Positions 1 to 7,866 of a DNA stretch of 7,900 bases are shown piece after piece. The stretch's first letter is position 1. Each line of letters starts with the position of its first letter. Location of the stretch: contig JACPHL010000261.1 in the NCBI GenBank assembly GCA_016188625.1, positions 1-7,900 of the forward strand, read 5' to 3'. The notes beneath the pieces are model-generated. The model saw nothing but the letters and a program-made list of their open reading frames with translations. It had not been told where the DNA came from and did not search any database. The DNA is from Candidatus Rokuibacteriota bacterium. GTDB lineage: Bacteria > Methylomirabilota > Methylomirabilia > Rokubacteriales > JACPHL01. A program made the translations under genes and the position numbers.

Positions 1-948
1 GCGGAGCGCCCGGAGGATCTGCCGCCCCGCGAACGGCGATGGGACCCGGAGGCCCGGGGCGTCGGTGACCGGGTTCTCCCACGGGGTGGTCGTCTCCGCC
101 TTCTCGCCCCAGGCCCTGACCACCGGGGCGCACCCCTCGGCCTGCACCGCGATGAGCGGGGGGCCCCCGTTCACCCAGCCGAGCGCGGCCAGCTCCTGGT
201 AGGCCTTGTGGATCCCGATGAGGCCGGTGCCACCGCCGCAGGGGTAGATCACCAGGTCCGGGGCGCGCCAGCCGAGCTGCTCGGCCAGCTCGAGCCCCAT
301 GGTCTTCTTCCCCTCGAGCCGGTACGGCTCCTTGAGCGTGGCCAGGTCGAACCACCCGAGGAGCGGCGCGGTCCGGGCGACGAGCGCCCCGGCCGTGGCG
401 ATGCTCCCCTCGACGGTGAAGACGTGGGCGCCGGCTAGCAAGGCCTCGGCGACCGCGGCCTGGGGGGTCTCGCGGGGGACCACCACCGCGACCGGGAGCC
501 CCGCCCGCGCGCCGTAGACCGCGGCCGCGCCGCCCGCGTTCCCGGCCGAGGGGATCATGAGCCCCCGCACCCCGAGCGCCTTGGCCCGGGTGATCGCCAT
601 CCCGAGGCCGCGGGCCTTGAAGGTGCCGGTGGGGTTCTGCCCCTCGTCTTTCGCCAGGAGCCGGTGGAGGCCGAGGTGCGCGCCGAGACGCGGCAGCGGA
701 AGGAGCGGGGTCCCGCCCTCCCCCAGCGTCACCGGCTCCTCCTCGGGGTCCAGGGGGAGCAACTCCCCGAAGCGGTACATCCCCGGAGGGCGCTCCCGGA
801 GCGCCTCGCGGGTCACGGCGCGGGCGATCCGGTCCAGATGGTAGCGGACCGCCAGCATCTGCCCGCACTCCTGGCAGACGGTCAGGAGCGCCGCGGGGTC
901 GTAAACCCTGCCACAGACCGAGCACTCCACGTGGCTCACGAAGCTCAT
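1..948 (-). CDS. thrC: Threonine synthase-like PLP-dependent enzyme, 3' end cut by window edge
   Basis: The 316 visible codons read without a stop from ATG at 948 to base 1, so the C-terminus is missing. Residues 9-28 carry two Cys-x-x-Cys pairs (C9/C12 and C25/C28), the N-terminal zinc-ribbon-like element of many bacterial threonine synthases. A fold-type II PLP enzyme follows: GEGGTPL at about 76-82, the PLP-lysine motif GTFKARG (K111), SAGNAGGAA near 134-142, and the glycine-rich phosphate loop PCGGGTGLIG at about 236-245. Threonine synthase converts O-phospho-L-homoserine to threonine and phosphate in the cytoplasm. Roughly 80-100 residues are expected beyond the edge. The start is favoured by the zinc ribbon immediately after it and a weak GGTGA about 7 bases upstream. 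Its ATG overlaps the TGA of the upstream ATPase fragment. Related PLP enzymes (cysteate synthase, threonine dehydratase-like proteins) share the fold, so the substrate is inferred. Confidence 0.82.
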   Translation of the reverse strand, partial: MSFVSHVECSVCGRVYDPAALLTVCQECGQMLAVRYHLDRIARAVTREALRERPPGMYRFGELLPLDPEEEPVTLGEGGTPLLPLPRLGAHLGLHRLLAKDEGQNPTGTFKARGLGMAITRAKALGVRGLMIPSAGNAGGAAAVYGARAGLPVAVVVPRETPQAAVAEALLAGAHVFTVEGSIATAGALVARTAPLLGWFDLATLKEPYRLEGKKTMGLELAEQLGWRAPDLVIYPCGGGTGLIGIHKAYQELAALGWVNGGPPLIAVQAEGCAPVVRAWGEKAETTTPWENPVTDAPGLRVPSPFAGRQILRALR

Positions 949-1259
949 CGTGATGTCACCGGGTGCTTGGCCCTCTGGGCGTCCAGGCGCCACAGGGCGC
1001 TGACCGGCAGGGCGTGAAGCTTGGGTCCAAAGCCAAGGGGCTCCGAGCCCATGTAGAGCAGCACGCCTCGATGAAATCGCTTGCCGGTGACCTCGGAGAA
1101 GAGACGCAGCGGTTTGAAGTCGTCTTCGGTCAGGGTCATAGCGGCCTTGACCTCGATCCCCACCACCCAGCCTCCTTGGGCCTCCAGGACAAGGTCTACG
1201 TCGTGCCCGGTCGAGGTGCGGTAGTGGAACATGGTAGGCTTCGTCTTACTCCAGGTCAA
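945..1259 (-). pseudogene. C-terminal remnant of an AAA+ ATPase with DUF4143 domain
   Basis: The 104 codons read from TTG at 1259 to TGA at 947-945. The protein has FHYRTSTGHDVDLVLE near residues 11-26 and GIEVKA near 34-39. This gives the Asp (D22) ... Glu-x-Lys (E36, K38) core typical of the PD-(D/E)XK-like C-terminal part of DUF4143 ATPases, proteins of about 400 residues often found as mobile or toxin-like accessory genes. The N-terminal AAA+ part, with Walker A and B, is absent. Upstream in frame is CAG and then TAG at 1265-1263. Family members, as I remember them, continue upstream of Gln-Leu-Thr-Trp-Ser, so the TAG probably interrupts an older gene. An AGGAGG at 1276-1271, 11 bases before the TTG, could still drive translation of the fragment as a small protein. 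Its stop overlaps the downstream start by ATGA, so coupled translation with the threonine synthase-like gene is possible. I favour a decayed remnant; a functional short ORF is the alternative. Confidence 0.65.
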
Positions 1260-1270
1260 CTGCTATGTAA

Positions 1271-1276
1271 CCTCCT
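1271..1276 (-). promoter_or_regulatory. Shine-Dalgarno-like AGGAGG before the ATPase fragment
   Basis: The minus strand reads AGGAGG here, 11 bases before the TTG at 1259. It lies in the only AT-rich patch of the neighbourhood (about 1266-1300), which on the minus strand also contains TAAAAT-type sequence just upstream. It is a perfect anti-SD match with slightly long spacing. It may be a true ribosome site for the fragment or a chance match; an in-frame TAG lies between it and the TTG, which does not prevent initiation at the TTG. Confidence 0.35.
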
Positions 1277-1299
1277 GTAAAATCGAGATAATTTTAACC

Positions 1300-1437
1300 A
1301 GAGCCCGCTGTGGCGGCGACCTGCGCGTCGTGGCCGTCGTGACAGAGCCCCATGCGGTGCGGCGGCTGCCGGGCTTTCTCGGGCTCGCCGCAGAGCCGCC
1401 GCCGCGCCCGGTCGCCGCCGTCGTGGCCGTTCCGTAA
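1300..1437 (+). pseudogene. Possible remnant of the C-terminal end of an IS91-family transposase
   Basis: About 46 codons in one frame, ending at TAA 1435-1437, read RCGGDLRVVAVVTEP, then a Val-Arg-Arg-Leu segment, then FLGLAAEPPPRP. This resembles the end of IS91/IS801-type Y2 transposases as I remember it: a Cys-Gly-Gly zinc-finger half, an Arg-Val-Ile-Ala strand, a helix ending in His-Leu-Gly-Leu, and a Pro-rich tail. The catalytic HUH and Tyr motifs and everything upstream are missing, and the frame enters from the antisense of the ATPase remnant at the AT-rich patch. If correct, this is a scar of a transposition or deletion that also truncated the neighbouring ATPase gene. The match is short and judged by memory only, so it could be chance in GC-rich DNA. 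Confidence 0.45.
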
Positions 1438-1587
1438 GCCGGGCCCCCCGGGGCGGCTCGCCGCGCCGGATCCGGCCGCGGTCTGGGCGCAGGCGCCTGG
1501 CCGGCCTGGCCCGGCCCGTCCACGCTGCCGGCCGCCCTGTCACCGGCCCCTTGCGCGCCCCGCTCGGGGGGTGCTACGCTCCGGTCA

Positions 1588-1606
1588 CCCGGGGCCTGCC
1601 CCCGGG
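1588..1606. repeat. GC-rich inverted repeat CCCGGGG / CCCCGGG
   Basis: The arms CCCGGGG (1588-1594) and CCCCGGG (1600-1606) are perfectly complementary around a 5-base loop, and a further CCCGGGGG copy lies at 1616-1623. It could form a strong hairpin in RNA from either strand about 100 bases before the first array gene. No T-run follows on either side, so a standard intrinsic terminator is not supported. In DNA this GC-rich it may have no function. Confidence 0.3.
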
Positions 1607-1661
1607 GGAAGGCGCCCGGGGGCTCGGGTGCGTCAGGCGGGGCCGATGAAAGAGGCGCTTT

Positions 1662-1676
1662 GAACTTGCTAGGTTC
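1662..1676. repeat. Short dyad GAACTT-gct-AGGTTC upstream of the array
   Basis: The 6-base arms pair with one G-T wobble around a 3-base centre, 23 bases before the first array ATG. It overlaps the end of a TTGAAC -35-like sequence. The position would suit an operator or a small leader hairpin, but the dyad is short and has no partner copy, so its function is unknown. Confidence 0.2.
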
Positions 1677-1699
1677 TTGGCGCGGCTCGGAAAGGTGAC

Positions 1700-2971
1700 A
1701 TGGTGCAGGCTGGCTGGCTCGCTGGTCGCCCTGCTCGCTGCCCTCTGCGAGTCCGAGCGGCCCTGGCCGCTCTCCTCGTCGGAGTCTTCTCGCTGGGCCC
1801 TGTCCGTGAGGCGGAAGCGCAGCGTCCGCTCCTCGTCGGCGCCTCGATTTCCCGGACCGGGGCCTACGCCGAGCTGGCACCGGCGCTGCAGCACGGGTAT
1901 CGACTCTGCGTCAAGCACGCGAACGAGAAGGGCGGCGTTATGGGGCGGCCGCTCCAGCTCGTCATCGAGGACGATCGCTCGGAGCCCGCCACCGCGGCCC
2001 GCCTTTACGAGCGGTTCATCACGCAGGACCGGGTGGACGCCCTGCTGGGGCCGTACTCCTCGCCGATCACCGAGGCCGTGGCGGACGTCGCGGAGAAGCA
2101 CCGAATGCCCCTGGTGGCCAGCGGGGCCGCCGCGACCTCGATCTTCAAGAAGGGGCGCCGGTACGTGTTCATGTTGGTCTCGCCGGCCGAGGTGTATCTC
2201 GAGGGACTCGTGGACATGGCCGCCCGCCGCGGCCTGAGGACCCTGGCGCTGATCCACGAGGACACACTGTTCCCCCGGGCGATCGCCGAGGGCACGGTCG
2301 CGCTGGCGAGGACGCGCGGGCTCTCGGTTGTCGCGGTCGAGGCCTATCCGCGGGGAACGAAGGACTTCTCCGGGCCGCTCATGCGGATCCGCGACGCCAA
2401 CCCCGACGTCCTCGGGGCCGGCACGTACTTCGACGACGCGGTCGCCATCACTCGCCAGCTCGAGCGCGTCGACCTCAACCCCAAGATGTTCGCGGCGACG
2501 GTGGGCAGCGACTTCCCCAAGTTCTACACCGAACTCGGCCGCACGGCCGAGTTCGTCTACGGCAATTCCCAGTGGGAGCCGGATCTCGTGGCGCTGCTGC
2601 GGGCCGGCGGCCGGATCCCGGTGACCCGTCGATACCCGGGCGCGCGCGAGTTCGTCGAGGCCCACCGGAGGGAATTCCCCGGCGTCGCCATCTCCTACCA
2701 CACGGCCCAGGGCTACGGGGGCTGCCAGGTGTTCGTCGAGGCGGTCCGGCGCGCCGACTCGCTCGACGGGCCGAAGGTCAGGGACGCCCTCCTCAAGATG
2801 GACCTCAATACCGTCTTCGGCCCCTTCAAGGTGGATGCCGACGGCGTGCAGATCGCCCACAAGATGCTGATGTTCCAGTGGCAGGACGGCAAGAAGGTGA
2901 TCGTCTGGCCCGACGAGCTGGCCCCCGACAAGCCCCGCTTCCCGACGCCGCCATGGAGTCAACGACCATGA
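1700..2971 (+). CDS. ABC transporter substrate-binding protein, LivK-like, array copy 1
   Basis: This 423-residue secreted protein is a type I periplasmic binding protein (Peripla_BP_6) that should capture a small ligand, probably an amino acid or carboxylate, for an ABC permease. The signal peptide has an arginine-rich n-region (to about residue 19), a hydrophobic AALAALLVGVFSLG, and a likely cut after Ala-Glu-Ala at 40. There is no lipobox cysteine. Lobe 1 has GASISRTGAY (47-56), HGYRLCVKHANEKGG and GPYSSPITEA; lobe 2 has EDTLF and GTYFDDAVAITRQ. Residues expected near the ligand by comparison with E. coli LIV-binding protein are S121, T146, Y243 and D271. The two mature cysteines are C70 and C342. 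The N-terminus is 13 residues longer than in the other copies, and there is an extra Leu before RAGG. AAAGGTG lies only a few bases before ATG 1700; the next codon, GTG 1703, would have better spacing and is an alternative start. Its stop overlaps the next start by ATGA. The ligand is unknown. Confidence 0.93.
   Translation: MVQAGWLAGRPARCPLRVRAALAALLVGVFSLGPVREAEAQRPLLVGASISRTGAYAELAPALQHGYRLCVKHANEKGGVMGRPLQLVIEDDRSEPATAARLYERFITQDRVDALLGPYSSPITEAVADVAEKHRMPLVASGAAATSIFKKGRRYVFMLVSPAEVYLEGLVDMAARRGLRTLALIHEDTLFPRAIAEGTVALARTRGLSVVAVEAYPRGTKDFSGPLMRIRDANPDVLGAGTYFDDAVAITRQLERVDLNPKMFAATVGSDFPKFYTELGRTAEFVYGNSQWEPDLVALLRAGGRIPVTRRYPGAREFVEAHRREFPGVAISYHTAQGYGGCQVFVEAVRRADSLDGPKVRDALLKMDLNTVFGPFKVDADGVQIAHKMLMFQWQDGKKVIVWPDELAPDKPRFPTPPWSQRP
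2955..2958 (+). promoter_or_regulatory. SD-like GGAG inside copy 1 tail, serving copy 2
   Basis: The codons for the conserved Trp-Ser (TGG AGT) supply GGAG, followed by 9 bases and then the ATG at 2968, which overlaps the TGA at 2969-2971. The same layout recurs at the next three junctions, which supports a real coupling or reinitiation site. It also makes 2968 a better start than the in-frame ATG at 2953, which would place the SD after the start. Confidence 0.55.
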
Positions 2972-4197
2972 AACGATTCGGCAGCGCGTTTGCCGCAGGC
3001 CTGGTCTCCCTCTCGTCCTGGATCGGTCTGGCTGCAGTCGCGCAGGCGCAGCCACCGATTCGCATCGGCGCGTCGCTGTCGCAGACCGGACCCTATGCGG
3101 CTCCCGGCCAGAACCAGCTTCGGGGCTACCGGCTCTGCGTGAAGCACACCAATGAGAAGGGCGGAGTTCTGGGGCGGAAGCTCGAGCTGGTCGTCGAGGA
3201 TGACCAGTCCCAGCCCGCCATCGCCGCCCGCATCTACGAGAAGCTCATCACGCAGGACAGGGTCGACGCGATCCTCGGGCCTTACGCCTCGCCCATCACC
3301 GAGGCGGTGGCCGATGTGAACGAGAGGCACCGGATGCCGATGGTCGCCACCCAGGGCGCCGCCACGTCGACCTATCGGAAGGGACGGAAGTTCGTCTTCA
3401 TGGTGCCGTCCGCGGCCGAGGTGTACCTGGAGGGGGTCATCGAGATCGCCGCGAAGCGGGGCCTGAAGACGGTAGCCGTCGTCGGCGAGGACACGCTGTT
3501 CGCTCAGGCGGTGGCCCAGGGGACTGCCGACCTGGCGAGGAAGAAGGGGCTCGAGGTGGTCTTCGTGGCGGCGTACCCGAAGGGAGCCACCGACTTCACC
3601 GCAATCCTGACCAAGGTGCGGGCGGCGAACCCGGACGTGTTCGGCGCCGCCACCTATTTCGACGATGCCGTGGCCATCACCCGACAGCTGAAAGAGCTGG
3701 ACGTGAACCCAAGGATGTTCGCGGTGACGGTCGGCGGAGATCTTCTGAAGTTCTACGGGGTGCTGGGGCGAACCGCGGAGTTCGTCTATGGAGCGTCGCA
3801 GTGGCTGCCCGAGCTGGTCACCGTGCGGGCGGGCGGGTTGATTCCCATCGCGCGACAGTACCCCGGCGCCCGAGAGTTCTTCGAGTCCTACAAGAATGAG
3901 TTCCCCGGGGCCGATTTCTCCTACCATGCCGCCGGGGGCTACAGCGGTTGTCAGATCCTCGTGGAGGCCATCAAGCGCGCGGGCTCCCTGGACGGCGACA
4001 AGATCCGGAACGCCATCCTCAAGATGGACCTCAACACCGTCTACGGCGGCTTCAAGGTGGACCCGGACGGCTTCCAGATCGCGCACAAGATGGTGACGTT
4101 CCAGTGGCAGGACGGCAAGAAGGTGATCGTCTGGCCCGACGAGCTGGCGCCCGGCAAGCCGCGCTTCCCGACGCCGCCGTGGAGCCAGCGGCAATGA
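2968..4197 (+). CDS. ABC transporter substrate-binding protein, LivK-like, array copy 2
   Basis: This 409-residue Peripla_BP_6 protein is predicted to be periplasmic. The signal peptide has a Lys-Arg start, a hydrophobic core around residues 7-24, and cleavage after Ala-Gln-Ala at 27. The mature protein begins QPPIRIGASLSQTGPY. It continues with LRGYRLCVKHTNEKGG (about 51-66), VVEDDQSQP, ITQDRVDAILGPYASPIT (94-111), GAATST, EDTLF (174-178) and TYFDDAVAITRQ (229-240). It ends with the family tail WPDELAPGKPRFPTPPW (389-405). By comparison with LIV-binding protein, S108, T133, Y230 and D258 are candidate ligand contacts and are all present. C57 and C328 are the only cysteines. The start at 2968 (ATGA overlap) is chosen over ATG 2953 because the other junctions share exactly this geometry. 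The frame is open far upstream of 2953 only as a shadow of copy 1. The specific ligand cannot be read from the sequence. Confidence 0.95.
   Translation: MKRFGSAFAAGLVSLSSWIGLAAVAQAQPPIRIGASLSQTGPYAAPGQNQLRGYRLCVKHTNEKGGVLGRKLELVVEDDQSQPAIAARIYEKLITQDRVDAILGPYASPITEAVADVNERHRMPMVATQGAATSTYRKGRKFVFMVPSAAEVYLEGVIEIAAKRGLKTVAVVGEDTLFAQAVAQGTADLARKKGLEVVFVAAYPKGATDFTAILTKVRAANPDVFGAATYFDDAVAITRQLKELDVNPRMFAVTVGGDLLKFYGVLGRTAEFVYGASQWLPELVTVRAGGLIPIARQYPGAREFFESYKNEFPGADFSYHAAGGYSGCQILVEAIKRAGSLDGDKIRNAILKMDLNTVYGGFKVDPDGFQIAHKMVTFQWQDGKKVIVWPDELAPGKPRFPTPPWSQRQ
4181..4184 (+). promoter_or_regulatory. SD-like GGAG inside copy 2 tail, serving copy 3
   Basis: TGG AGC of the Trp-Ser tail codons gives GGAG nine bases before ATG 4194, which overlaps TGA 4195-4197. 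The spacing is identical to the preceding junction. Confidence 0.55.
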
Positions 4198-5423
4198 GAA
4201 GGACCTGCAGCGCTGTCAGCGCGTCGTGCGTCGCGATAGCCCTCTGGATCGGTCTCTGGGCGACAGCCGACGCGCAGCCGCCGATCCGCATCGGCGCCTC
4301 CCTCTCGCAGAGCGGGGCCTACGCGGCCCTGAGTCAGAACCAGGTGGGTCGCGGGTACCCGCTCTGCCTCAAGCACACGAACGAGCAGGGGGGCGTCCTG
4401 GGACGGAAGCTCGAGCTGGTCCTGGAAGACGATCAGTCTCAGCCGAGCACGGCCGCCCGTATCTACGAGAAGCTCATCACGCAGGACAAGGTGGATTTCG
4501 TGCTCGGCCCATACGGCTCCCCCATGACCGCGACCGTGGCCGAGGTGGTCGAGAAGCACCGGATGCCGATGGTCGCGAACGCCGCCACGACCTCGCTCTT
4601 CAAGAAGGGCCGGAGGTTCATCTTCATGGTGCCTCCCCCAGGAGAAGTCTTCCTGGAGGGTCTCATCGACATGGCCGCAAAGAAGGGCCTGAAGACGGTG
4701 GCCGTCATCCACGAGGACACACTCTTCGCCACGACAGCCGCTCAGGGCGCCGTCGAGCTGGCGCGGAAGAAGGGGCTCGAGGTCGTCCTCGTCCAGTCAT
4801 ACTCGAAGGGCACCGCCGACTTCACGGGGCTCCTGACCAAGGTCCGGGCAGCGACGCCCGATGTCCTGGCGGCGGGATCGTACTTGGAAGACGCGGTGGC
4901 CATCACCCGCCAGCTCAGAGAGCTGAACGTGAACCCGAAGATGTACGGGGTGACTATCGGCGGGGCTCAGCCCAAATTCTACGAGGCGCTCGGACGGATC
5001 GCAGAATTCGTCTACGGAAACTCGGCATGGGAGCCTGAGCTGGTGACGCTGCGGGCCGGTGGATTGATTCCCGTCGCCCGTCAGTATCCCGGAGCGCGGG
5101 AGTTCGTCGAGGCCCACAAGAAGGAGTACCCCGGGGCCGATCTCTCGTACACGACCGCCGCTGGCTACGGCGGCTGCCAGGTGCTGATGGAGGCGGTCAA
5201 GCGCGCCGGCTCCCTGGACCGAGAGAAGGTCCGGGACGCAATTCTGAAGCTGGACTTCAACACCGTCTACGGCCCGTTCAAGGTGGACCCTGACGGCTTG
5301 CAGATCGGCCACAAGATGCTCACGCTCCAGTGGCAGGACGGCAAGAAGGTCATCGTCTGGCCCGACGAGCTGGCGCCCGGCAAGCCGCGCTTCCCGACAC
5401 CACCGTGGAATCAACGACAATGA
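4194..5423 (+). CDS. ABC transporter substrate-binding protein, LivK-like, array copy 3
   Basis: This 409-residue Peripla_BP_6 protein has a signal peptide with an Arg-Arg start, a hydrophobic CVAIALWIGLWA and likely cleavage after Ala-Asp-Ala at 27. The cysteines at 5 and 12 lie in the signal and do not form a convincing lipobox. It differs from copy 2 by one added residue near 51-54 (QVGRGYP in place of QLRGYR) and one lost residue in ANAATTS (128-134). The total length is therefore unchanged. Candidate pocket residues are S109, T133 and Y230; the acidic residue found at 258 in copies 1 and 2 is Ala here (GGAQPKFY), and the YFDD motif reads YLED. The RGYRLC arginine is replaced by proline. 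The mature cysteines C58 and C328 are kept. It is translationally coupled on both sides by ATGA. A changed ligand range is inferred; the general role as a solute receptor for an ABC importer is firm. Confidence 0.95.
   Translation: MRRTCSAVSASCVAIALWIGLWATADAQPPIRIGASLSQSGAYAALSQNQVGRGYPLCLKHTNEQGGVLGRKLELVLEDDQSQPSTAARIYEKLITQDKVDFVLGPYGSPMTATVAEVVEKHRMPMVANAATTSLFKKGRRFIFMVPPPGEVFLEGLIDMAAKKGLKTVAVIHEDTLFATTAAQGAVELARKKGLEVVLVQSYSKGTADFTGLLTKVRAATPDVLAAGSYLEDAVAITRQLRELNVNPKMYGVTIGGAQPKFYEALGRIAEFVYGNSAWEPELVTLRAGGLIPVARQYPGAREFVEAHKKEYPGADLSYTTAAGYGGCQVLMEAVKRAGSLDREKVRDAILKLDFNTVYGPFKVDPDGLQIGHKMLTLQWQDGKKVIVWPDELAPGKPRFPTPPWNQRQ
5407..5410 (+). promoter_or_regulatory. SD-like GGAA inside copy 3 tail, serving copy 4
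   Basis: TGG AAT (Trp-Asn) gives GGAA in place of GGAG, with the same 9-base spacing to ATG 5420 and the same ATGA overlap (TGA 5421-5423). This is the weakest of the four embedded sites, so copy 4 may depend more on direct reinitiation by terminating ribosomes. Confidence 0.45.
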
Positions 5424-6649
5424 GCAAGTTCGGCAAGGCGCTCGTCGCGATTGTCATGATCATCGCGCCGCCGATCGCTCTTATTGCGGTCGCGCAGGCT
5501 CAGCCCCAGATCCGTATTGGCGCGTCGGCGTCCAAGACCGGGACGTATGCGGCCCTGGGGCAGAACCAGCTCCGCGGGTATGAGCTCTGCGTCAAGCACA
5601 CGAACGAGAAGGGGGGCCTCCTGGGACGGAAGCTCGAGCTCGTCGCGGAAGACGATCAGTCTCAGCCCGCGACCGCCGTCCGCATCTACGAACGGCTCAT
5701 CACCCAGGACAAGGTCGACCTCGTTCTCGGCCCGTATGGCTCGCCGATGACTGCGCCCGTGGCTGACTTGACCAAGAGGTACAGGACGCCAATGGTGGCG
5801 CCAACGCTCGGCACCGCCTCGGTCGTAAAGGAGGGACGAGGGTACATCTTTCAGGTGTATTCGCCCTCGGAGGTTTACCTGGAGGGCTTCATCGAGCTGG
5901 TCGCTCGACATGGGCTCAAGACCATCGCCCTGATCGGCGAGGACAGCCTCTTCCCGCAGGCGGCGGTCAAGGGCGCCACGGAACTGGCGAGGAAGAGAGG
6001 GCTCCAGGTAGTCTTCACCGAGGCATACCCCAGAGGGAACACCGATTTTTCGGCGATTCTGAGCCGGGCTCGGGCCGCGGCTCCCGATGCGCTCGGCGCC
6101 GCCACCTTCTTCGAGGACGCAGTCGCCATCACCCGGCAGATGAAAGAGCTGGACCTCAACCCCAGGATGTACGCCGCGACGGTCGGCGTAGGTCAGCCGG
6201 AGTTCTACAAGCTGCTCGGAAAGAGCGCGGAGTTCGTCTACGGACCCTCGCAGTGGGAGCCCGAGTTCGTGACGATCCGGGCCGGTGGATTGATCCCCAT
6301 CGCGCGCCAGTACCCGGGGGCGCGGGAGTTCGTCGAGGCTCACAGCCGGGAGTATCCCGGTGCCGACCTCTCCTATCAGACCGCCGCCGGCTACGCGGGC
6401 TGCCAGGTCCTGGCGGAGGCCGTCAAGCGCGCCGGCTCCCTGGACCGGGAGAAAGTCAGGGACGCGATCCTGAAGCTCGACTTCAACACCGTGTTCGGCG
6501 CGTTCAAGGTGGACGCGAACGGTCTTCAGATCGCGCACAAGATGGTGACGATCCAGTGGCAGGACGGCAAGCGGGTCATCGTCTGGCCCGAAGAGCTGGC
6601 GCCCGGCAAGCCGCGCTTTCCGACGCCGCCGTGGAGCCAGCGGCAATGA
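5420..6649 (+). CDS. ABC transporter substrate-binding protein, LivK-like, array copy 4, divergent pocket
   Basis: This 409-residue Peripla_BP_6 protein has a signal peptide with a Lys-rich start, a long hydrophobic stretch (about 8-24) and cleavage after Ala-Gln-Ala at 27. The scaffold motifs are conserved: GASASKTGTY, LRGYELCVKHTNEKGG, LGPYGSPMT, EDSLF, FFEDAVAITRQ, RAGGLIPIARQYPGAREF and the common tail. It is the most altered copy where ligand contacts are expected. The loop is APTLGTASVV rather than GAATS, so Ala stands at the usual Thr position (133). Phe replaces Tyr at 230, and GVGQ (256-259) lacks the acidic residue of copies 1 and 2. The Lys-Lys of the loop is changed to Lys-Glu, followed by GRGYIFQV. 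C57 and C328 remain. Its last third (AVKRAGSLDREKVRDAILKL) is almost the same as in copy 3, suggesting recent duplication or conversion. It may bind a chemically different ligand from its neighbours. Confidence 0.95.
   Translation: MSKFGKALVAIVMIIAPPIALIAVAQAQPQIRIGASASKTGTYAALGQNQLRGYELCVKHTNEKGGLLGRKLELVAEDDQSQPATAVRIYERLITQDKVDLVLGPYGSPMTAPVADLTKRYRTPMVAPTLGTASVVKEGRGYIFQVYSPSEVYLEGFIELVARHGLKTIALIGEDSLFPQAAVKGATELARKRGLQVVFTEAYPRGNTDFSAILSRARAAAPDALGAATFFEDAVAITRQMKELDLNPRMYAATVGVGQPEFYKLLGKSAEFVYGPSQWEPEFVTIRAGGLIPIARQYPGAREFVEAHSREYPGADLSYQTAAGYAGCQVLAEAVKRAGSLDREKVRDAILKLDFNTVFGAFKVDANGLQIAHKMVTIQWQDGKRVIVWPEELAPGKPRFPTPPWSQRQ
6633..6636 (+). promoter_or_regulatory. SD-like GGAG inside copy 4 tail, serving copy 5
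   Basis: TGG AGC gives GGAG nine bases before ATG 6646, which overlaps TGA 6647-6649. The junction DNA around it is nearly identical to the copy 2/3 junction. Confidence 0.55.
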
Positions 6650-7866
6650 GCACGTTCGGCAAGGCCTGCATCGCCGGACTTCTCATCGGCGTGCCGGCGA
6701 TCGGCTCTGTTGCGGTCACCGAGGCGCAGCCCCCGATCCGGATCGGCGCGTCGATGGCTCAGACCGGATCACTCGCGGCCCCGGGTGAGAAGATGCTCCG
6801 CGGCTACCGGCTCTGCGCCAAGCACGCGAACGAGAAGGGCGGGGTCTTGGGCCGCCGGATCGAGCTGCTCGTGGAAGACGATCAATCCACGGGGTCGACG
6901 GCCGCTGCCATCTACGAGAAGCTCATCACTCAGGACAAAGTAGACGCGATCCTCGGCCCGTACTCCTCCCCCATCACCGAGGCCATGGCCGACGTCAGCG
7001 AGAAGCACCGGATGCCGCTGGTCGCGGCGGGGGCCGCCGCGACATCAATCTTCAAGAAGGGCCGGAAGTTCGTCTTCGGAAGCCACTCGCCCGCCGAAAG
7101 GTATCTCCAGGGGCTGATCGAGGTGGCCGCCAGCCGGGGCCTGAAGACCGTGGCGGTCATCTACGAGAACACGCTATTGCAGAAGTCCATCGGGCTGGGC
7201 GCCCTCGCGCTGGCCAGAAAGCGCGGCCTCCAGGTCGTGCTCGAGGAATCCTATCCCAAGGGGACCACCGACTTCGGCGAGATCCTCCGCAAGGTGAAGG
7301 TTGCGAACCCGGATGTCCTGGCGGCCGCCGCGTACGAGGCGGTGACCATCACCAGGCTTCTCAAGCAGCTGGGCATCAACCCGCAGATGTTCGGCGGCAC
7401 CGTTGAGGTGGCGTTCCCCAGGTTCTACGAGACCCTCGGGCGAGACGCGGAGTTCGTGTATGGCGCCTCGCAGTGGGAGCCGGAGCTGGTGACGCTCCGT
7501 GCCGGCGGACTGATTCCCATCGCCCGCGAGTACCCGGGAGCCCGAGAGTTCGTCGAGTCTCATCGGAAGGAGTTTCCCGGCGCCGAGCTCTCGTATCACT
7601 CCGCCCAGGGGTACGGCGGCTGCCAGGTGCTCATGGAAGCCATCAGGCGCGCGGGCTCTCTCGAGAGCGAGAGGCTCAGGACCGCCATCCTGAACCTGGA
7701 CTTCAACACGGTCTTCGGCGCGTTCAAGGTGGACCCGGACGGGTTCCAGATCGCCCAGAAGAATGTGCTGTTCCAGTGGCAGGACGGCAAGAAGGTCATC
7801 GTCTGGCCCGACGAGCTGGCGACCGGGAAGGTGCGGTTCCCGACGCCGCCCTGGAACCAGCGCTGA
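6646..7866 (+). CDS. ABC transporter substrate-binding protein, LivK-like, array copy 5 (last)
   Basis: This 406-residue Peripla_BP_6 protein starts MSTFGKACIAG, with cleavage expected after Thr-Glu-Ala at 27. The Cys at 8 is inside the signal. The lobe 1 motifs LRGYRLCAKHANEKGG, GPYSSPITEA and GAAATSIFKKGR match copy 1 more closely than the middle copies. Three residues are missing relative to copies 2-4. Two are at the YFDDAV motif, which here reads YEAVTITR near 230-236, and one is at the C-terminus (WNQR and stop). VEVAFPRFY replaces the VGGD-type segment, moving the only acidic residue to 254. EDTLF has become ENTLL. FGSHSPAERYLQG replaces the FMV-type pocket strand. C57 and C326 are kept. 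It is the array's last member: no start codon overlaps its TGA, and the tail reads TGG AAC CAG CGC TGA, without the junction ATG. A distinct ligand is likely but unidentified. Confidence 0.94.
   Translation: MSTFGKACIAGLLIGVPAIGSVAVTEAQPPIRIGASMAQTGSLAAPGEKMLRGYRLCAKHANEKGGVLGRRIELLVEDDQSTGSTAAAIYEKLITQDKVDAILGPYSSPITEAMADVSEKHRMPLVAAGAAATSIFKKGRKFVFGSHSPAERYLQGLIEVAASRGLKTVAVIYENTLLQKSIGLGALALARKRGLQVVLEESYPKGTTDFGEILRKVKVANPDVLAAAAYEAVTITRLLKQLGINPQMFGGTVEVAFPRFYETLGRDAEFVYGASQWEPELVTLRAGGLIPIAREYPGAREFVESHRKEFPGAELSYHSAQGYGGCQVLMEAIRRAGSLESERLRTAILNLDFNTVFGAFKVDPDGFQIAQKNVLFQWQDGKKVIVWPDELATGKVRFPTPPWNQR

Follow-up and report, generated by a model that had tools for sequence, protein, structure and literature searches.

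Type I solute-binding proteins (SBPs) of the HAAT/LivK kind (PF13458), such as SAR11_0655 (8wch), 3td9, and LeuBP (1usg), define the fold and family common to five proteins, S1 to S5, that are encoded one after another in the DNA described here. The locus differs from HAAT/LivK systems in that five such genes stand in a row, livHMGF genes are not seen on the readable side, and the predicted contact positions differ from those of transporter-linked homologs. A second point of comparison is provided by sensor histidine kinases that are stimulated by SBPs (PMC11113362, PMC9602780). Loci related to ours likewise have SBP genes beside a kinase with a periplasmic dCache domain and coupled to it by overlapping gene ends. 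Compared with the characterized SBP-kinase pairs, however, these arrays place as many as seven same-family paralogs, together with a PF04392 protein, ahead of just one kinase, their putative partner.

The orphan SBP expansions of the Bug/TctC type in Bordetella (PMC5812351) also comprise many paralogs with few or no adjacent permeases. Unlike these, the array belongs to the PF13458 type I family, is chained by overlapping ends, and is kinase-linked in its relatives. A triple set in Nitrospinota (L057, L058) is composed of tandem Peripla_BP_6 proteins too, about 42% identical to those of the window, but has permeases and ATPases directly 3' and so looks like an uptake bank. A search of PubMed Central, with the subscription literature outside its scope, found no publication on arrays of the present kind.

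Organization of the array

The window, that is, the whole stretch of DNA analyzed, is a complete contig (C65) of 7,900 nt. It comes from a Rokubacteriales-like MAG of 2.6 Mb in 344 contigs that is 84% complete, and its closest relatives in the collections are from Rokubacteriales/Methylomirabilota. Five complete and intact ORFs run in the same direction on the + strand from 1700 to 7866 (Table 1). All four junctions between them are 4-base ATGA stop/start overlaps, and the spacing from stop to stop across the first four stops is exactly 1226 nt. As read from the sequence, every internal ATG is preceded 9 nt upstream by GGAG or GGAA, located within the codons of a conserved C-terminal W-S/N motif. 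A profile search of the window detected no permease or ATPase gene between the copies or leftward to the contig start. The opposite strand to the left of the array carries a DUF4143 remnant and a threonine synthase gene truncated by the contig start. No sigma-70-like site was found on the + strand of the presumed promoter region.

Table 1. Features of the window, residues of S1 to S5 compared with liv-linked proteins, and tandem loci of relatives.
Feature	Position	Strand	Details
DUF4143 remnant	945-1259	-	Short ORF matching DUF4143 positions 126-159 of 160 only; likely remnant of a longer ATPase gene
Presumed promoter region	1260-1699	+	Intergenic, 5' of array
S1, binding protein gene 1	1700-2971	+	423 aa, Peripla_BP_6, signal peptide
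Junction S1/S2	2955-2971	+	GGAG 2955-2958, 9 nt 5' of ATG; ATGA 2968-2971
S2, binding protein gene 2	2968-4197	+	409 aa
Junction S2/S3	4181-4197	+	GGAG; ATGA overlap 4194-4197
S3, binding protein gene 3	4194-5423	+	409 aa
Junction S3/S4	5407-5423	+	GGAA; ATGA overlap 5420-5423
S4, binding protein gene 4	5420-6649	+	409 aa
Junction S4/S5	6633-6649	+	GGAG; ATGA overlap 6646-6649
S5, binding protein gene 5	6646-7866	+	406 aa
Residue, S2 numbering	107		S1-S5: S/A/G/G/S; liv-linked: S in all
Residue, S2 numbering	130		S1-S5: A/G/A/L/A; liv-linked: A
Residues, S2 numbering	257-258		S1-S5: SD/GD/GA/VG/VA; liv-linked: GD
Residue, S2 numbering	320		S1-S5: H/H/T/Q/H; liv-linked: H
L112			Seven copies, last one cut by contig end; PF04392 reached, then contig stops
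L113 (G047)			Four copies, three contiguous; PF04392, dCache kinase, REC downstream
L114 (G028)			Two copies; PF04392, dCache kinase, REC downstream
L047			Two copies; record titled Betaproteobacteria; PF04392, dCache kinase, REC downstream
L048			Two copies; record titled Betaproteobacteria; PF04392, dCache kinase, REC downstream

The initial annotation, made from the window alone, had described five full-length, intact paralogs with no permease or ATPase between them, and this description is borne out by the five ORFs, their uniform assignment to PF13458, the ATGA junctions, and the purifying selection reported below. It had also named an assembly artifact as a possible source of the array. 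This is excluded: with at least 23% DNA divergence between them, the copies are too different to stem from an assembly collapse or repeat, and the -4 overlaps are also present in the L112 and L113 arrays from two other MAGs. S1 to S5 can be read as a putative polycistronic, translationally coupled bank of diverged periplasmic SBPs, a reading that we hold, jointly with the sensory role developed below, with about even confidence.

Protein family and predicted ligand positions

All five proteins match PF13458 (Peripla_BP_6) in a Pfam search, with E values of 4e-62 to 2e-70 and near-complete profile coverage, and inspection by eye finds in each a putative export signal with a hydrophobic N-terminus and an A-x-A-like site at its end. 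The predicted model of S2 (pLDDT 87.5) shows the two lobes of a type I SBP and has PDB matches of the LivK/LivJ type. Its best match is 8wch_A (SAR11_0655; TM 0.79, 29% identity), the structure of which was solved with L-pyroglutamate.

That the copies differ in their ligand-lining loops was a further proposal of the initial annotation. We compared array and liv-linked proteins at the alignment columns matching the ligand contacts of E. coli LeuBP, a protein of about 20% identity; the contact residues are those that we take to be the LeuBP contacts, and the LeuBP sequence itself was checked against PDB 1usg. At the contact columns ±1, the entropy of the liv-linked proteins is below that of random sets (P=0.005), and the array shows an excess of variation over the liv-linked proteins (P=0.0013). 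The array excess has P=0.025 for the 12 contacts alone and P=0.05-0.39 within liv-invariant columns, which indicates that part of the pocket effect is general relaxation in the arrays. The proposal is upheld at the contact columns and their immediate neighbors, though not under the strictest comparison. Predicted ligand-contact columns are nearly fixed in the transporter-linked proteins and diversified in the arrays (Table 1), and S1 to S5 would probably bind different ligands, to judge from their sequences.

Divergence and ancestry of the copies

Identity among the five copies is 61-72% at the protein level and 69-77% at the DNA level, falling to 56-65% at third positions. Values of dN/dS (NG86 script) are 0.25-0.31 between neighboring copies and 0.16 for S2 versus its closest relative, a member of a tandem pair in G041 that is 82% identical; purifying selection thus acts on the array copies. 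Synonymous codon identity is raised near the 3' ends, reaching 0.87 in S1 to S5 and 0.81-0.82 in L112 and L113 at codons 361-390 (S2 numbering), against 0.55-0.68 outside these codons and 0.71 for liv-linked genes. This may reflect gene conversion between copies or RNA constraint.

A maximum-likelihood tree of 61 proteins places S1 to S5 and 20 other array-clade copies in a single clade (support 100/99) that includes none of the liv-linked proteins. The sister of this clade is a group of nine liv-linked proteins (union 99/92), and the other liv-linked proteins lie further out. Position 77 (S2 numbering) is a possible clade marker, being Glu in 22 of 24 array-clade proteins and Tyr in 24 of 24 liv-linked ones. 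Copies group across genomes, S2 with the G041 copy (100/99) and L113 with L112 copies, and the duplications therefore predate the species splits.

These results bear on the possibility that the array is a plain tandem amplification, maintained for dosage or by neutral drift, in which specificity is unchanged. The tandem layout agrees with such an origin, as does the raised 3' synonymous identity in suggesting ongoing exchange between copies. However, the copies are older than the genomes that hold them, they have been kept under purifying selection, and they vary at the predicted ligand contacts, so we consider plain amplification very improbable.

Genomic context in relatives

Context was searched across the order (60 genomes) and the phylum (95 genomes), with one additional scan of genome contigs. 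Single-copy homologs head a liv operon, with LivH next, at 27 of 32 loci (L053, L054, L115, L118-L122, L124-L131, L148, L149, L163, L166-L169, L174-L177; the five others are L117, L123, L162, L164, and L165), and PF04392 comes next at none of the 32. The operon order is LivH-LivM-LivG-(478-aa protein)-methyltransferase-LivF, or the same minus the two middle genes. The protein between LivG and the methyltransferase in these operons (L118, 5947-7383, and relatives) is conserved, 478-490 aa long, and has no Pfam match; L127 carries two copies of this 478-aa gene. L117 is a single array-clade member whose downstream DNA reads like the start of a carboxylase, without a kinase.

Tandem loci carry two to seven copies. 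Where downstream DNA is readable (L112, L113, L114, L047, L048), the next conserved gene encodes a PF04392 binding protein in five of five and liv genes are found in none, and in all four loci where the contig continues, PF04392 is followed by a dCache_1-HAMP-GAF-HisKA-HATPase kinase and REC domains, although these loci possibly trace to one evolutionary event and their counts thus overstate independence. The initial annotation had pointed to livHMGF or a sensor kinase as informative neighbors of the array. Neither is present to its left up to the contig start, and to the right the contig ends 34 nt past the S5 stop, so that it is the tandem loci of relatives that speak to this point, with a kinase and without liv genes.

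The kinases of L113 and L114 have a dCache_1 (PF02743) periplasmic sensor domain (E 2e-16) plus HAMP. An ATGA or GTGA overlap joins the PF04392 gene to the kinase gene in L113, L114, L048, L150, and L155, and L048 also has a TGATG overlap between its second SBP gene and the PF04392 gene. Among the response regulators encoded close to kinases of this type are REC-SpoIIE proteins in L114 and L048 and a REC-guanylate cyclase in L154. A simple motif search of the dCache domains gave no match to the R.WY-type amino-acid motif, and direct ligand sensing by dCache remains compatible with this result. In L150 (G045, 7579-12141), a DctP-type (PF03480) binding protein, PF04392, and a dCache kinase are consecutive, with DctP in the slot of the array.

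Several other features of these loci were observed. No fifth binding protein gene was found in the 1.2-kb gap within the L113 array. Just 3' of the array-kinase cluster in L048, positions 10769-13288 encode an ammonium transporter fused to a PAS-HisKA-HATPase kinase. In L114, positions 12647-16522, 5' of the two-copy array, encode a long protein that combines a sigma-54 activator domain with Fis-type HTH, AAA_16, and TPR domains.

Transporter and kinase genes in the genome of the window

The genome of the window has 19 Peripla_BP_6 matches and many Liv permease matches. One of its contigs, C101, encodes a LivH 82% identical to the liv-linked family type, followed by LivM and ATPases. In operon direction, C101 starts with the last codons of a separate binding protein, ...DGKARFPTPSWSER-stop, and then LivH. 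S5 ends in ...ATGKVRFPTPPWNQR, and a join of C101 to the right end of the window is ruled out by this difference. The C101 liv operon thus has its own binding protein, and the array is therefore additional to that transporter, as it is in G028, G047, and G053, which carry both array and liv-linked binding proteins.

Two readings had been put forward in the initial annotation: that a bank of receptors supplies one shared transporter, or that the binding proteins serve sensing as well as import. Sensing appears favored by analogy with the relatives, in which PF04392, the dCache kinase, and REC domains adjoin the arrays and liv genes do not; the shared transporter retains support from C101 and the Nitrospinota set. 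As an uptake bank acting in trans, the five proteins would dock on one LivHMGF encoded elsewhere, such as that of C101, and broaden its substrates. The high identity of the C101 LivH to the family permease, with LivM and ATPases beside it, is consistent with this, as is the 59-73% identity to S2 that binding proteins of both the array and the liv-linked kind have retained. The three Nitrospinota genes, more distant homologs lying directly 5' of livHMGF, show that such banks exist. On the other hand, C101 already has a binding protein of its own, the tandem arrays of relatives adjoin PF04392 and kinase genes through overlapping junctions and never liv genes, and two genomes keep an array pair without any other close homolog. 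We regard an uptake bank in trans as rather unlikely.

The two genomes in question are the Betaproteobacteria-labelled ones of L047 and L048, which have the kinase-linked pair only and no other homolog at E<=1e-40. The kinase-linked unit persists in both of them without its liv operon. Its occurrence in Betaproteobacteria records likely reflects transfer, with mis-binning of MAG contigs as the alternative. These genomes also argue against a dual role, in which the array proteins would deliver to an unlinked liv transporter and signal to a kinase, coupling uptake with sensing. Binding proteins with double use are an accepted theme (PMC9602780), and both modules are present in G028, G047, and G053, but retention of the kinase-linked pair alone makes a dual role improbable in our judgment.

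An array-type kinase was not found in the genome of the window (84% complete), where the best match is 34% identical and covers the kinase part only. Two PF04392 fragments occur there, 35-38% identical to the array-linked PF04392, with no kinase behind either. These fragments are the first genes of C20 and C270, and joining either contig to the right end of the window was ruled out by the same low identity and the absence of a kinase behind. PF04392 binding proteins are strongly expanded in Rokubacteriales, with at least 33 matches in one genome as compared to two in that of the window.

A sensory bank as the most likely explanation

Taken together, the role that we judge most likely for S1 to S5, at about an even chance, is that of a set of sensory SBPs with a single kinase as their common target, by analogy with the related loci. 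The five proteins would descend from a transporter-linked (liv) ancestor, having lost the liv link and gained the kinase link. Each would capture a different small periplasmic metabolite, and the loaded proteins would act on a shared membrane-bound dCache-HAMP-GAF histidine kinase, either directly or via the PF04392 protein encoded just before it. The signal would then be passed on by REC-domain proteins, which in related clusters are REC alone, a REC-SpoIIE phosphatase, or a REC-nucleotide cyclase. A kinase module presumably lies 3' of the array in the genome of the window, and contact between S1 to S5 and such a kinase is predicted on the same grounds.

Of the characterized SBP-kinase pairs, 10 of 11 are gene neighbors (PMC11113362). 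Two P. aeruginosa cases, in which genes for binding proteins lie close to those for the kinases AgtS and AruS, showed no interaction between protein and kinase (PMC11113362), and gene proximity is therefore no proof of interaction. More tentatively, and with somewhat less than even confidence, we suggest that a modular bank of two to seven diverged, translationally coupled binding proteins may allow one dCache kinase to read several metabolites by exchanging periplasmic receptors, new inputs being added when a binding protein gene is duplicated within the row.

In conclusion, the array is more interesting than a simple amplification and represents a variant of two themes, the SBP encoded beside a kinase and the orphan SBP expansion. 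The input signal is undefined for most sensor kinases, and many binding proteins have no adjacent transporter. The occurrence of one family in both transporter-linked, fixed and kinase-linked, diversified forms makes it possible to compare their docking surfaces and pockets directly. If the sensory reading is true, these banks would provide a test case, from a lineage of soil and groundwater that has not been cultured, for how one receptor can be given many inputs via interchangeable periplasmic proteins.
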